31,582 nucleotides of DNA, taken from IMG/VR virus record IMGVR_UViG_3300045974_000197, positions 1-31,582 of that record; one strand, given 5' to 3'. Positions within the stretch are counted from its first letter, which is position 1, and the number at the start of each line of letters is the position of its first letter. Source of the DNA: a virus. Shown in pieces: positions 118 through 13,649 of the stretch. The notes under the pieces are model-generated. The model was given only the letters and a program-made list of their open reading frames with translations, made no database searches and was not told the DNA's origin. A program made the position numbers and the translations under genes.

Positions 118-271
118 CTTCAAACGCATGGTTTTGCATGGGTTTCGAATGGCCAATGAATAGGCGCATCATTCGGGCGCGCCTACCAATGAAGAAACAG
201 AAAACAGCGCCAGCACCTGGCGCCATACGATGGCCATGCATTGACGTATTTTGAAAAAAGAAAAATATTTC

Positions 272-299
272 TTGCAAGATCAAAAAGCGCCGCTATACT
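272..299 (+). promoter_or_regulatory. Sigma70-type promoter for the 371-3541 gene
   Basis: TTGCAA (272-277) and TATACT (294-299) are separated by 16 bp. An A/T-rich stretch at about 249-270 could act as an UP element. Transcription would start near 305-306, inside the DnaA box TTATGCACA (305-313), so DnaA binding could repress this promoter. The leader runs about 65 nt to the ATG at 371. Confidence 0.6.
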
Positions 300-370
300 C
301 GCAGTTATGCACAGCAGTTCAGCAGTGCATAAATCAGGCGATGCGCCTGGCAACTTTAGGAGTTTTCAAA

Positions 371-3300
371 ATGGCCACAATCAATGCTCAGACAATCATC
401 AATGCTGTGACAGTAGCCGCAGCCCTTGCGCCTGCTTACCATGACAGCGCCGTAAATGACGCCATGCCAAGCGGCGCGCCGCATGGATACGATGGCGCCG
501 CAGAGTATGGCGAGCTGGCTGCATATGAGAACAACCCGCACGGCTATTGCTACGATGCCGATAAATCCCGTAAGCAGGCCATCCGCACGGTTGACGATAT
601 GCAAGACAGCGCGCGCGCAGAGCTGCGCGCCATGTTCAATGTTCCATTGAAGATCAAAATCCAAACTAGCGAGCGCGGATTTATGCGCATAGTAAACACA
701 CGGGCGCGCCTGGAAGCACTAGCCGCAACAGTTCGCAGTAACGCCAAAGCCTTTGGCGGTGGATTGGTGCGAGCACCCAAAGCAAAGCCCGCACAATCTT
801 GGAATGCTGGCATTGTGCGCACAGTACGCGAACTGATAGAAGATAGGGATTATGCGGGCGCTGCAGAGCTGGCAGAGCGCCAATGCGGCGCGGTGTTCTA
901 TTTGAACGATAAGGGCAACCACGCTAAAGGCCATGCGTTTTTCATGTATGCACCCATGGCCGTGCAGGGTTTGCCTGATAGCTTGGTAAGTGGGCGCTGT
1001 GACAATGGCAAGTATTCAGTATTTGGCTTGGAAAGTGGTTTAAGTGTTGATGGCCAGCAGACAACCCGCAAAGCCGCAGAGCAGCGCGCCATCGCAAAAG
1101 TGCAATATGTTGGCCTTGAAAAATTGGAGCAGGCCATTCAAAAAGGCGGCGTAACAGACCATGCCGCAGCCCGTGCCGAATGGTTTATTGAGCATGGCAT
1201 TCAAGATGCGCAAGAAATAGCCGCACGCATTGAAGACAGCGAAGCCGCAGACGATACAGCAACCAATGGCCCGGACCTGGCCATGCTGGAAGCCATGGCG
1301 GCGCAAGATGTGGCGCAAGTGGTGGCCAGTGCAACAGCAGGCGCCGCCATTGAACAGGCGCAAGAGGCTGCAGCCCTGCAGGAAGTGGCGCAAGTGGTGG
1401 CCAGCATGAAGCCAGCACGGGCGCCCGTTATTTTGCTTAATGGAACAGTGATTTTTCACAAGCGCATGCCGAATGGCTCGCAAGATGCATACATTGAAAG
1501 CGGGCGCGCAATGACAGGCGCAGAGTGTTTTGATTATGAACAGCAGGTTAAAGCTATGGCCGAATGCGAAGCAATCGAGCAGGCGCAGCCAGTGCGCGAA
1601 CTGGAAACCGTATGCGAAGCCAGCAGCGCTGCGAATGGCGCAGGCATGCAACAGGGCCAAGCCAGCACCAGCGCCGCACCTGGCGCCGTTAACGCAAGCC
1701 GCACGGGCCAAACAGTACAGGGCAAGTCCGGCCATTGGATTGCATTTATGTTCCGTAACGCCGCAGGCTTGCCAAGCCTTGAATTTACTGGCCCGGATGG
1801 CGCCCGCGAGCCCGTGCAATCTTTTGAAGATGGGCGCGCCCGTATGGCTGCGCTGCAGAAAATGGCGCGCCGCGCCGATGATATAGCCGCAGGGTTTGAA
1901 GATGACAACACCGAAAGCGCCGCAACACCGATAAACATCGGCGCCGCTTTGCTGGAAAATGTGGACGTGTCAACCCTTGGAAGTGCAACCGTGCAACGGT
2001 GGGCGCCTGAACTGTACGCGGGCGCCGTGGCTTACCTGGAAGACATAAATTATCACAGTGAAGTGCTTTTAATCCGGGCCTTACGCACGGATAACGGCGC
2101 CGCCATCGGGTATGCGCGCCGCCTGTTGAGCGTGCAGGCTGCGGCAGGGCATCTAATCCCTGAGGCTGCAGCCATGGCCGGCGAACTGCACGCCGCACTC
2201 GATACCCTGGCCAAAGAGCCCGGCAGCACCGATACCCGCAAGACCTTGGAAAACGAAGGCGCGCAACTACACGGCACCCCGCAAGACCTTGGAAAAAATC
2301 CGGCGCCTGGCCCCTTGACAATCACCATTACCCGCGCCGAAGGCCTGAGCATTGAATGCGGTAAGCCTGTTACGGTTGCCAGTTTTGCGGATGCCGATAA
2401 AACATTGAATGCCTGGAGTGATACGGTACGGCCTGGCGGATGTTCGGATAAGGTTGATTTTTCGATTACGTGGCCGAATGGCGAGACATACGAAGGCACC
2501 TATTCATTGAAACACCACAGCAGCGAAGCGCCTAGCCTGGCGCGCCACCTGATTGATTTTGCAGAGTTTGAAACAGGCCTTTTTTGCCCCGCCCATATGA
2601 CGCAAAAATCATATGGCGCATATCTAAAAACTGTAACGCCTGAGCGCCGCGCCTTTTTTGGTGGCGTGCTGGAAATCCTGCGCGGGCTCGGTGTGTATTT
2701 TCCACGGATGCGCCCCACCGCTTTAGACTTGCGCGCACTGTTGCAGGCGGGCGCCACACCTGCGCAACTGGTAGGCATTGGCGTGGACTACACACCACAC
2801 CATTACAGCAGCGAAAGCGGCACGGGCGCGATTGTGAGCGCCACCCCTTCGGATTGGTGCGGCATGCGGGTGGTGGTTAACCTGGAAGATGGCCGAACAC
2901 TAAATGCGGAAGCCGCAGAATTTGCAGATGATGGCAGTTTTCGTTTTAACATGAAAAGCCACGGCGCCCCGTACCTGGCGCAACTGGCTGCAGCCGTGGC
3001 CACAGTAAAGGCGAGCGAGAGCGCAGCCAAAGAACAGGCAGAGCATGCGCACGCGGTAGAGCTGCAGCGCCTGGCCGCTGAATACCCGCAGCTTAAGCGC
3101 GCAGAAAGTAAACACAGCGGCGGAAAACATGCCGCCATCAATGCGCGCATTCTGCTGAAGGCCGCATTTAAGGGCATTAAATTTAGCGTAACAAGCAGCT
3201 ATAACAGCATGCGGGTAAATTGGATTGATGGCCCCACGGTAGCGCAGGTAAATGATGTTATCGGGCGCTTTGACATTGGCGCCAGTGATTCACAAACAGA

Positions 3301-3541
3301 CTATTTTTACACGGTACGAACTGCGTTTAGCGAGCTTTTCGGCGGCGTGCAGTATATGAACGTTGGAAGAGATGAAACAGACGGAATGATTTTGCGCGCC
3401 CTGGCGCATTGTTTCCCGCAAGATGAAAGCCGCCCAAGTGTGGAAGATTACCGCAGGGCACTCGGCCTGCTGGACTGGTGCGGCGCCATGCGGCGCGAAG
3501 TGCAGGAACACATCGCCGCCATGGATGCCCGCAACATTTAG
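371..3541 (+). CDS. Large polyvalent-type phage protein (LPD29-like C-terminal region)
   Basis: A 1056-aa protein. The ATG at 371 is preferred over upstream in-frame starts because AGGAG (358-362) precedes it at good spacing. No enzyme motif is evident. Residues about 310-350 are Ala/Gln-rich with a duplicated VAQVVAS motif; residues 450-515 form a compact region with GHWIAFMF. Residues about 650-745 resemble LPD25 (W-x-NGE-x-YEG-x-Y). Residues about 915-1005 resemble LPD29: KFSV, then VNWIDGPT, then a late Phe/Tyr-rich segment. LPD domains are known from polyvalent proteins that phages and conjugative elements make early in host entry. The domain calls are from memory of family patterns. The linker before the LPD25-like region carries two copies of a repeat also found at 4459-4580. 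An intrinsic terminator follows. Confidence 0.7.
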   Translation: MATINAQTIINAVTVAAALAPAYHDSAVNDAMPSGAPHGYDGAAEYGELAAYENNPHGYCYDADKSRKQAIRTVDDMQDSARAELRAMFNVPLKIKIQTSERGFMRIVNTRARLEALAATVRSNAKAFGGGLVRAPKAKPAQSWNAGIVRTVRELIEDRDYAGAAELAERQCGAVFYLNDKGNHAKGHAFFMYAPMAVQGLPDSLVSGRCDNGKYSVFGLESGLSVDGQQTTRKAAEQRAIAKVQYVGLEKLEQAIQKGGVTDHAAARAEWFIEHGIQDAQEIAARIEDSEAADDTATNGPDLAMLEAMAAQDVAQVVASATAGAAIEQAQEAAALQEVAQVVASMKPARAPVILLNGTVIFHKRMPNGSQDAYIESGRAMTGAECFDYEQQVKAMAECEAIEQAQPVRELETVCEASSAANGAGMQQGQASTSAAPGAVNASRTGQTVQGKSGHWIAFMFRNAAGLPSLEFTGPDGAREPVQSFEDGRARMAALQKMARRADDIAAGFEDDNTESAATPINIGAALLENVDVSTLGSATVQRWAPELYAGAVAYLEDINYHSEVLLIRALRTDNGAAIGYARRLLSVQAAAGHLIPEAAAMAGELHAALDTLAKEPGSTDTRKTLENEGAQLHGTPQDLGKNPAPGPLTITITRAEGLSIECGKPVTVASFADADKTLNAWSDTVRPGGCSDKVDFSITWPNGETYEGTYSLKHHSSEAPSLARHLIDFAEFETGLFCPAHMTQKSYGAYLKTVTPERRAFFGGVLEILRGLGVYFPRMRPTALDLRALLQAGATPAQLVGIGVDYTPHHYSSESGTGAIVSATPSDWCGMRVVVNLEDGRTLNAEAAEFADDGSFRFNMKSHGAPYLAQLAAAVATVKASESAAKEQAEHAHAVELQRLAAEYPQLKRAESKHSGGKHAAINARILLKAAFKGIKFSVTSSYNSMRVNWIDGPTVAQVNDVIGRFDIGASDSQTDYFYTVRTAFSELFGGVQYMNVGRDETDGMILRALAHCFPQDESRPSVEDYRRALGLLDWCGAMRREVQEHIAAMDARNI
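2235..2293 (+). repeat. Intragenic copies of the CCCGCAAGACCTTG repeat
   Basis: CCCGCAAGACCTTGGA occurs at 2235-2250 and again at 2278-2293, the second preceded by ACTACACGGCAC. Both are in frame, giving RKTLEN and LHGTPQDLG at residues about 622-641, in what looks like a linker. The same unit recurs outside any recognised gene at 4459-4580, in the same order. Confidence 0.75.
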
Positions 3542-11829: not shown

Positions 11830-12074
11830 ACCAAACCCGAGTTGGCTCGCTGATTGAAGCCTTTATGAATGTGGCTATCGGCTTTGGCATCAACATGTGC
11901 GCAAACTTTTTGATATTGCCGCTGATTGGGTTTCACATAACCCTGAGCCAAAACCTGTTTATCGGCGTGCTTTATACCGGCATCAGCGTGGCGCGCAGCT
12001 ATGTTATTCGACGTTGGTTTAATGCTCGGCTGCATGCGGCGGCGCAGCGCCTGGCCGGTAGGGCGGCAGCATGA
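11826..12074 (+). CDS. DUF7220-like two-helix membrane protein
   Basis: An 82-aa protein. The sequence pattern SLIEAFMNVAIGFGINMCAN, then NLFIGVLYTGISVARSYVIR and RRWFN, matches small phage membrane proteins I know as DUF7220. Two membrane segments are predicted (residues about 14-35 and 43-60), with a basic C-terminus inside. Role unknown. Early expression argues against a holin role. Confidence 0.7.
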   Translation: MNQTRVGSLIEAFMNVAIGFGINMCANFLILPLIGFHITLSQNLFIGVLYTGISVARSYVIRRWFNARLHAAAQRLAGRAAA

Positions 12075-12253
12075 AGCAAGGTTTTGTATTGGTGTGGCCC
12101 AACGGAAAACCCCGCAGCATGGGTGGTCCGTTTGACATTCTTTATGCACCACGCAGCAAGCTGGCCACAGCCACACCACCGGCCAAACGCGGCCCAAAGC
12201 CTAAGCCTATGACGATCAAGGCGAAAAAATCTATGGTCGGGGCATATGAATGA
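12071..12253 (+). CDS. Small basic early protein
   Basis: A 60-aa protein. A short folded start (FVLVWPNGKPRSMGGPFDIL) is followed by a Lys/Pro-rich tail (PPAKRGPKPKPMTIKAKKSM) that looks like a nucleic-acid-binding tail. The stop lies 8 bp inside the methyltransferase start, so translation is probably coupled to it. Confidence 0.5.
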   Translation: MKQGFVLVWPNGKPRSMGGPFDILYAPRSKLATATPPAKRGPKPKPMTIKAKKSMVGAYE

Positions 12254-13173
12254 GCTACATCTATTCGCAGGCGCTGGTGGCGGAATACTCGCAGGGCAGT
12301 TGCTCGGGCACCGATGTGTTTGCGCCGTTGAATGGGAACCCTATGCCCAAGCTGTGCTTTTGGCACGACAGGACGATGGAAGTTTCCCACCATTCCCGAT
12401 TTGGACTGACGTGCAAACCTTTGACGGAACGCCATGGCGCGGCCTTGTTGACGTGGTGGCGGGCGGGTTTCCGTGCCAAGACATATCCGTTGCGGGGGGG
12501 GGGGGCGGGCCTTGACGGCCAGCGCAGCGGAATGTGGCACCACATGGCCCGCATCATTGGCGAAGTACGACCCAGCTACGCATTCATTGAAAACAGCCCA
12601 GCACTCGTTAATCGAGGACTTGACCGGGTGCTCGCTGACCTTGCCAAGCTCGGGTTTGATGCGCGATGGACAGTGCTGGGAGCATCCGACGTGGACGCCC
12701 CGCACCACCGCCAAAGAATCTGGATACTGGCAAACGCCATCAGCCAGCGATGCAACACGCGGCGGGACGATCACCGACAAGATGACCGGCCAGAGCCTGG
12801 TGCAGATGGTGAACACACCCAGCAAGTGGCCGACGCCAACAGCTTGCGGGAACTACAACCGCAAGGGTATGAGTGCGACCAGCGGGGATGGGCTGGCGAC
12901 AGCGGTAAAGATATACCCCACAGCCACAGCCACAGCCTACAAAGGATGGTCACCGAACCACAACCGTGCGGAGACAAACGACCGGCCGGACTACACGATA
13001 GAACGTCAGGGTTTTGCCCCTGGCCAGCAGACCCCGCCGATGCGCTTGAACCCCGATTGGGTCGAGTGGCTAATGGGGTGGCCTATCGGGCAAACCGAAT
13101 TAAAGCCATTGGAAACGGCCAAGTTCCAAGAGTGGCAGCAACAGCATTCAATTTTCTAAAGAATCAACTATGA
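12246..13173 (+). CDS. C5 cytosine DNA methyltransferase, interrupted by frameshift at G12
   Basis: The first 89 codons (12246-12515) carry motif I (HLFAGAGG, residues 5-12), motif II Glu in VEWEPYAQ, and motif IV GGFPCQDISVAG with catalytic Cys77. They then run into a 12-G tract (12494-12505) and stop at 12513-12515. In the +1 frame the protein continues with GLDGQRSGMW, motif VI-like AFIENSPAL, motif VIII HHRQRIWILA, a target-recognition region and motif X GNGQVP, ending at 13173. One G fewer restores about 308 residues. Its stop overlaps the next start (ATGA), so the +1 frame is the true end. The tract could be phase variation, a natural mutation or a read error. Target site is unknown. 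Confidence 0.85.
12473..13159 (+). CDS. Overlapping phage protein ending in the WVEWLMGWP motif
   Basis: Up to 228 aa in a third frame, read across the methyltransferase. GTG at 12473 is one start; TTG at 12512, just after the G tract, is another. The sequence looks like a real family: LAKYDPATHSLKTAQHSL, LPSSGLMRDGQCWEHPTW, WQTPSASDATRGG, WPTPTACGNYNRKG and the C-terminal NPDWVEWLMGWPIG. I recall these motifs from phage proteins beside, or fused to, cytosine methyltransferases. The strand is therefore coding in two frames over about 650 bp. No catalytic residues are identifiable. Function unknown. Confidence 0.7.
   Translation: MPRHIRCGGGGRALTASAAECGTTWPASLAKYDPATHSLKTAQHSLIEDLTGCSLTLPSSGLMRDGQCWEHPTWTPRTTAKESGYWQTPSASDATRGGTITDKMTGQSLVQMVNTPSKWPTPTACGNYNRKGMSATSGDGLATAVKIYPTATATAYKGWSPNHNRAETNDRPDYTIERQGFAPGQQTPPMRLNPDWVEWLMGWPIGQTELKPLETAKFQEWQQQHSIF
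12494..12505 (+). repeat. G12 homopolymer in the methyltransferase gene
   Basis: Twelve consecutive G between motif IV and GLDGQRSG. In related enzymes this place reads VAGKGAGL, so the tract falls within codons for small residues and tolerates change. Such tracts are a known substrate for slipped-strand mispairing. Confidence 0.95.
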
Positions 13174-13649
13174 ACCACCGTCAAAATCTGGCATTAAGCC
13201 CCGTGCAACGCAAGACTATCAATCTGATTAAACACCCGGTATGGCGCGCCCTTGCAGTCGAGCCCCTGGAGAAAAAAGAACAGGTACGGCTATCCCTGGA
13301 CTCGCATGCCGCGTTTGATGAAATCGTGCATGGCCGTGGCACTACTGCCCACATTGATGAATTGGCTGTAGCTGCAAATACCTGCCTGGTGCTGTGCGAG
13401 CGCGGCTTTGGCCCCGAGTGCGAGCCAAAGATTATTGAAGGCCAAGAGGCCATTGTGCGTATCAAGATGCGCTGTTTGCAGGGCAAGGCTATTGGGCTAG
13501 ATGGCCTGGGTGCGCAAGCCCTACGCGATATGTTGGATATTCAAGCCCAGCAGATGGAACATGCAGGACAAAAGGAGGTAGCGATTGCGATTCTTGAAGT
13601 GCACAAGCGCGCCACCAGCGGGCATACGTTTAAGGTAGTTGCAGCATGA
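13170..13649 (+). CDS. Early protein of unknown function
   Basis: A 159-aa protein starting inside the methyltransferase stop (ATGA). It is mostly helical (EKKEQVRLSLDSHAAFDEIV, THIDELAVAANTCLVLCERG-type segments). A middle region IIEGQEAIVRIKMRC is followed by a long C-terminal helix (LRDMLDIQAQQMEHAGQKEV). Related proteins occur in betaproteobacterial phages in my recollection, without a role. Overlaps the next gene by 4 bp. Confidence 0.65.
   Translation: MNHRQNLALSPVQRKTINLIKHPVWRALAVEPLEKKEQVRLSLDSHAAFDEIVHGRGTTAHIDELAVAANTCLVLCERGFGPECEPKIIEGQEAIVRIKMRCLQGKAIGLDGLGAQALRDMLDIQAQQMEHAGQKEVAIAILEVHKRATSGHTFKVVAA

Follow-up and report, generated by a model that had tools for sequence, protein, structure and literature searches.

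Poly-G tracts of Campylobacter phages reportedly lie in receptor-binding genes, and phiX174 is an example of nested overlapping viral genes. In bacteria, phase-variable modification genes carrying poly-G or poly-C tracts are well known (PMC3711429). Hypermutable poly-G tracts of Campylobacter phages have been linked to phage diversity and to the evasion of bacterial resistance (Sorensen et al. 2021, Cell Rep. 35:109214, as cited in PMC10877375). Nested overlapping viral genes created by overprinting have been reviewed (PMC8227390). Within a literature coverage that was partial, and hence as weak evidence, no published overlap in phage DNA methyltransferases (MTases) and no published phage poly-G MTase were found.

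The locus described here belongs to the IMG/VR record IMGVR_UViG_3300045974_000197, positions 1 to 31,582 (31.6 kb, hereafter the window). Integrase, replication initiator, tail and endolysin genes are found in the window, which most likely derives from a temperate tailed phage. A 1096-aa ORF (251-3541) shows a weak PHROG match near its end only (phrog_15549, 5e-9). A tract of twelve G (G12) is the sole run of at least eight G or C in the window and, like the hypermutable repeats of phase-variable genes, it is located inside a coding frame. The features of the locus are collected in Table 1, where A designates the MTase (A1 before the tract, A2 after) and B the other frame (B1 and B2).

Table 1. 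Features of the MTase locus in the window.
Feature	Coordinates	Strand	Description	Evidence
G12 tract	12494..12505	+	slip site, glycine loop after PCQ	7-17 G at the homologous site of 118 unique contigs, among the matches listed
A1	12246..12515	+	MTase N-terminal half, motifs I-IV, 89 codons at G12	PF00145 8.3e-12, PHROG_363 5e-25
A2	12493..13173	+	MTase C-terminal half, motifs VI-X, frame +1 relative to A1 at G12	PF00145 1e-13, PHROG_363 1.1e-33
B1	12250..12493	+	start of the overlapping +1 ORF up to the tract, ATG 4 nt after the MTase start	stop tests
B2	12506..13159	+	rest of the overlapping ORF, ends LNPDWVEWLMGWP...QQHSIF	PHROG_1008 2.9e-21, PHROG_26627 3.6e-16; profile and stop tests
B1-A2 chimeric ORF	12250..13173	+	307 aa, without motifs I and IV	longest frame at G12
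Upstream 60-aa ORF	12071..12253	+	TGA (12251-12253) overlaps the B ATG (ATGA), possible coupling site	ORF list

A1 carries motif I (FAGAGGG) and the catalytic PCQ of motif IV (12471-12479); A2 carries an ENV-type motif VI (ENS, 12589-12597), a QRR-type motif VIII (QRI, 12712-12720) and motifs IX-X (GNGQVP, 13111-13128). In the window, these motifs of PF00145 C5-cytosine MTases are split at G12 between two frames. Among the matches listed, they stand in a single frame in 82 of the 114 scored tract contigs. Judging by these motifs, a C5-cytosine MTase of the HhaI/Dcm type, with predicted methylation activity, is encoded at this temperate-phage locus. An initial annotation, made from the window alone, had placed motifs I-IV in frame 0 and motifs VI-X in frame +1, meeting at twelve G, had the first frame end after 89 codons and had proposed that the loss of one G restores a full enzyme. 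The profile matches and coordinates (Table 1) bear out this description, the two frames do join upon loss of one G, and 82 of 118 tract contigs have them in frame. The next gene (13170-13649), whose first 4 nt overlap the end of the MTase gene, matches PHROG_20828, a function-unknown family.

Comparison with related phages, as the initial annotation had proposed, shows that the tract recurs at the same site with lengths that vary among near-identical contigs. A degenerate scan retrieved at least 119 IMG/VR contigs with eight or more G at the homologous site; a phage-borne tract of this kind is thus less unusual than had been supposed. Among the matches listed, tract length ranges from 7 to 17 G across 118 unique contigs, with the MTase in frame in 82, A1 joined to B2 in 17, the state of the window in 15 and 4 undecided. 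Clustering of these assembled, mostly metagenomic contigs at 90% identity gives 60 lineages, and the length varies in 13 of the 17 multi-member lineages. Some lineage members also differ beside the tract, so that the closest pairs weigh most: L154 (G14) and L242 (G15) are 98.4% identical, L220 (G10) and L238 (G11) 98.1%, and L170 (G17) and L253 (G10) 100% over 366 nt. Length differences between near-identical sequences, another mark of phase-variable genes, are accordingly seen in the relatives, and slipped-strand phase variation is the best reading of the differences within lineages, as the initial annotation had proposed for a phage cytosine MTase with a G tract. In 440 kb from 80 related loci, selected solely through peptides of the downstream MTase part, this site accounts for 12 of the 20 G or C runs of at least eight (Fisher odds ratio ~136, p ~3e-19). 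The tract pattern occurs in 1 of 398 genomes of the phylum of the Gallionella MAG.

Other runs were encountered in these relatives. Just downstream of the MTase match, the close relatives L064 (3642-3656, C15) and L066 (3642-3651, C10) have a C run that may be another variable tract. Within the MTase gene itself, G runs of 8-10 in the A1 region of L023 and in the downstream half of L020, L021, L022, L055 and L099 are possibly further slip sites.

The initial annotation regarded a read error as the main alternative. The window is one virus contig, G12 is hard to count and could be off by one, and its exact flanks were found in no second contig among the viral contigs searched. An assembly or read error, the true tract here being 11 G, is nevertheless rather unlikely, since 32 of the 114 scored relatives are off-register and the 13 variable lineages come from different samples. 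Such an error could concern the window contig but would leave the family-wide pattern without explanation; even if it had occurred here, the tract and B would remain.

The distribution of the states also bears on whether the tract is maintained. The three frame states are far from uniform (p = 2e-17), and such a surplus of on-state contigs points to selection on function. Neutral expansion of G in a tolerant glycine loop, or in a decaying gene, would fit the glycine coded by the loop and the fact that some tracts have only 7-9 G. However, the glycine loop of motif I is equally rich, yet a single run of at least seven (in L023) is present in 28.5 kb of A1 sequence. Moreover, off-register contigs keep both downstream frames intact. 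Together with the uneven states, this makes neutral expansion very improbable.

The WVEWLMGWP segment (13058-13084), which the initial annotation had treated as an alternative tail of the MTase, lies in the B frame. This frame does exist, but it is no mere tail: it is part of a conserved ORF extending over the whole MTase gene. The start arrangement is ATGAATG, with the MTase start followed 4 nt on by the B ATG, and after the tract the open frame of B2 extends from 12473 (12473-13159). The matches of B to PHROG_1008 and PHROG_26627 cover nearly the same bases as the PHROG_363 match in the MTase frame, and PHROG_1008, PHROG_26627 and PHROG_35493 are matched by B in 45-46 of 46 relatives. PHROG_1008 bears the name DNA methyltransferase, but Pfam detects no MTase domain in the B frame. 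Searches of Pfam, NCBIfam, PADLOC and PDB sequences gave no function for B (the best PDB match, 3nng_A at E 0.025, was disregarded). B would have stayed hidden because most gene-calling programs choose a single frame at each locus. In the RefSeq records of the Paenibacillus phages Leyra and Jacopo, both frames appear under the name DNA methyltransferase; their annotation of the B frame under this name (L288:597-1301 and L289:597-1301) looks like a misannotation.

Relatives were collected by scans with B and with A2, which gave 46 and 80 viral loci, respectively, plus 2 genome loci, and 6 phage records were added. Loci obtained with B are biased towards B, but those obtained with the MTase show the same picture. 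Wherever both frames were matched, including loci fetched by the MTase query alone, B is the frame of A2 plus one. Most relatives have no tract, and A1 and A2 are in one frame. Of 66 dereplicated loci, 55 have an ATG 4 nt downstream of the position where A starts, preceded in 50 cases by an NTG start. From there, the +1 frame stays free of stops in nearly all loci until a few tens of bases from the MTase stop. In L016, L027, L032, L037 and L038, which have no NTGAATG start, the MTase frame seems to continue from upstream.

Whether such an open frame is expected by chance was evaluated by holding the MTase protein fixed and shuffling codons among synonyms. Across the 66 dereplicated phages, the +1 frame contains 12 stops, compared with about 309 expected: 6 versus 83 in the B1 region and 6 versus 226 in the B2 region. 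All 12 are confined to L124 and the distant L132 and L133, those of B1 to two distant phages, and relatives of the MNEL type have no B1 stop at all. The +2 control frame shows no depletion (349 stops versus 264 expected upstream, 652 versus 615 downstream). Neither does the +1 frame of MTase genes from bacterial genomes (358 versus 366), with one outlier, L275, which looks phage-like. B is therefore kept open beyond chance given the other protein.

Its residues are also conserved beyond what the MTase frame imposes. A B profile scores 193 bits on held-out loci versus 83 for shuffles, exceeding all 100 synonymous shuffles in 63 of 63 loci downstream and in 57 of 63 upstream. Bacterial MTase controls give no real signal against this profile except for L275, the next best score being 5 bits. 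The +2 frame also beats its own shuffles, which would follow if B constrains the third positions; the profile test by itself is therefore not specific and was judged insufficient, and the stop test and the bacterial controls, which are specific, were added. In loci with less than 60% MTase identity, four-fold sites of the MTase are identical in 60% of comparisons versus 30% expected. Between the window and its nearest relative, L002, substitutions number 84, 25 and 47 at MTase codon positions 1, 2 and 3, position 1 of the MTase codon being the third codon position of B, and identity is 76% for B versus 59% for A2. The upstream half is under less constraint, with 60% of the changes at MTase third positions. 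The B profile beats every shuffle in the MTase genes of Paenibacillus phages Shelly and Jacopo, Mycobacterium phages Spikelee, Royals2015 and Graduation, Salmonella phages SEN5 and S9-5, and E. coli phage Golestan. Both frames are present in Acinetobacter and Microcystis phages, and B is detectable in phages of four bacterial phyla. At the level of sequence comparison, these tests demonstrate that selection keeps B open and conserved.

The same tests bear on a simpler view, in which the tract switches the MTase only and the +1 frame is a by-product. The on-state prevails (82 of 114 scored contigs, among the matches listed), the MTase motifs are intact, and bacterial modification genes switched by poly-G or poly-C are well known (PMC3711429). 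However, depletion of +1 stops and conservation at third positions are both strong here and both absent from bacterial MTases, which makes a by-product quite improbable.

It is instead probable, in our judgment, that the MTase gene also encodes B over its whole length and that the slipping G tract switches both proteins together. As B extends over all of the MTase gene, the tract is shared by the two genes, and a single slip in this common DNA would switch both proteins simultaneously. In the on-state, median products are 256 aa for A and 251 aa for B, and B is full-length in 79 of 81 on-state tract contigs. With one G less than in the on-state, the medians are 252 aa for A1-B2 and 87 aa for B1; with one G more, they are 105 aa for A1 and 293 aa for B1-A2.

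The initial annotation went further and proposed a three-state switch. Gain of one G, or loss of two, does join motifs I-IV to the WVEWLMGWP frame, and 17 contigs are in this A1-B2 state. In addition, the tract-less L100 has motifs I-IV, B2 and motif X fused in a single ORF, and its MTase frame has a stop. Against the idea that the A1-B2 chimera, reached with 13 or 10 G or by a ribosomal slip, is a selected product, this state is no commoner than the dead frame (17 versus 15, binomial p = 0.86), and off-states of nearly equal frequency speak against a third output with a role of its own. Moreover, the chimera is devoid of motifs VI and VIII, and B1 would have no need to be open. We thus give a selected A1-B2 product little probability. 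L100 (2750-3745; apparent isolate accession 649633076), where the stop in the MTase frame lies between motifs VIII and IX, may represent an A1-B2 fusion that has become fixed, or else a relic shifted twice.

Two translational devices were considered and rejected. A programmed ribosomal frameshift at the tract does not agree with most relatives, in which the tract is absent and the two open frames begin at neighbouring starts. The idea of a conserved -1 slippery heptamer was discarded too, as the junctions usually read GGAAAAGGC and the frames start separately.

For the joint switching of A and B, the following mechanism can be proposed. The G tract in the glycine loop after PCQ would slip at replication by slipped-strand mispairing. 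With 11 G (modulo 3), A and B would both be whole, corresponding to the on-state. With 12 G, as in the window, A would stop after 89 codons and B1 would run into A2. With 10 or 13 G, A1 would run into B2 and B1 would stop. The chimeras may be inactive, because motifs from one half are missing. Initiation of B would occur at the +4 ATG, either from a ribosome-binding site shared with A or by coupling to an upstream stop. Where recognisable, the ribosome-binding site is usually 3-5 nt before the A start, hence 7-9 nt before that of B, and an upstream frame of at least 40 codons ends at the B start in 15 of 66 loci and at the MTase start in 32. The benefit would probably be that individual phages or lysogens differ in DNA methylation, either as a protection from restriction or as an epigenetic switch; the likely use is thus to diversify phage methylation at the population level. 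As a guess, B could be an accessory protein acting with the MTase.

Extended to the family, the proposal is that phage C5-MTase genes of several phyla contain an unrecognised nested +1 gene, B, and that in many lineages one slip of the G tract switches both; this generalization appears reasonably likely. If true, a widespread hidden gene would be added to tailed phages, and a PHROG family named 'DNA methyltransferase' (PHROG_1008) would correspond to the other frame of the MTase gene. Phages would also vary their own DNA methylation by phase variation, and a stock in which some variants methylate and others do not could be insured against both type II and type IV (methyl-dependent) restriction.

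The locus resembles several known systems. As in phasevarions and type III mod genes, a repeat tract is located in the coding frame of a DNA MTase and its slippage acts as an on/off switch. Unlike in bacterial phasevarions, the gene is a phage gene for an HhaI/Dcm-type C5-MTase, and two overlapping frames share the tract. The Campylobacter phages likewise have poly-G phase variation, but an MTase plus an overlapping ORF is concerned here. The annotated gp56 of Paenibacillus phage Shelly (KP296795, note 'g55 internal gene') is, like B, a +1 ORF inside an MTase gene that matches the B profile. However, only its downstream part is open and it has no tract; no published claim of conservation for this internal gene was found in the partial literature coverage. 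Finally, as in overprinted viral genes, an older gene has a second ORF, B, superimposed on it in the +1 frame, but B spans nearly a whole enzyme gene, occurs in tailed phages of four phyla and has a slip tract inside.
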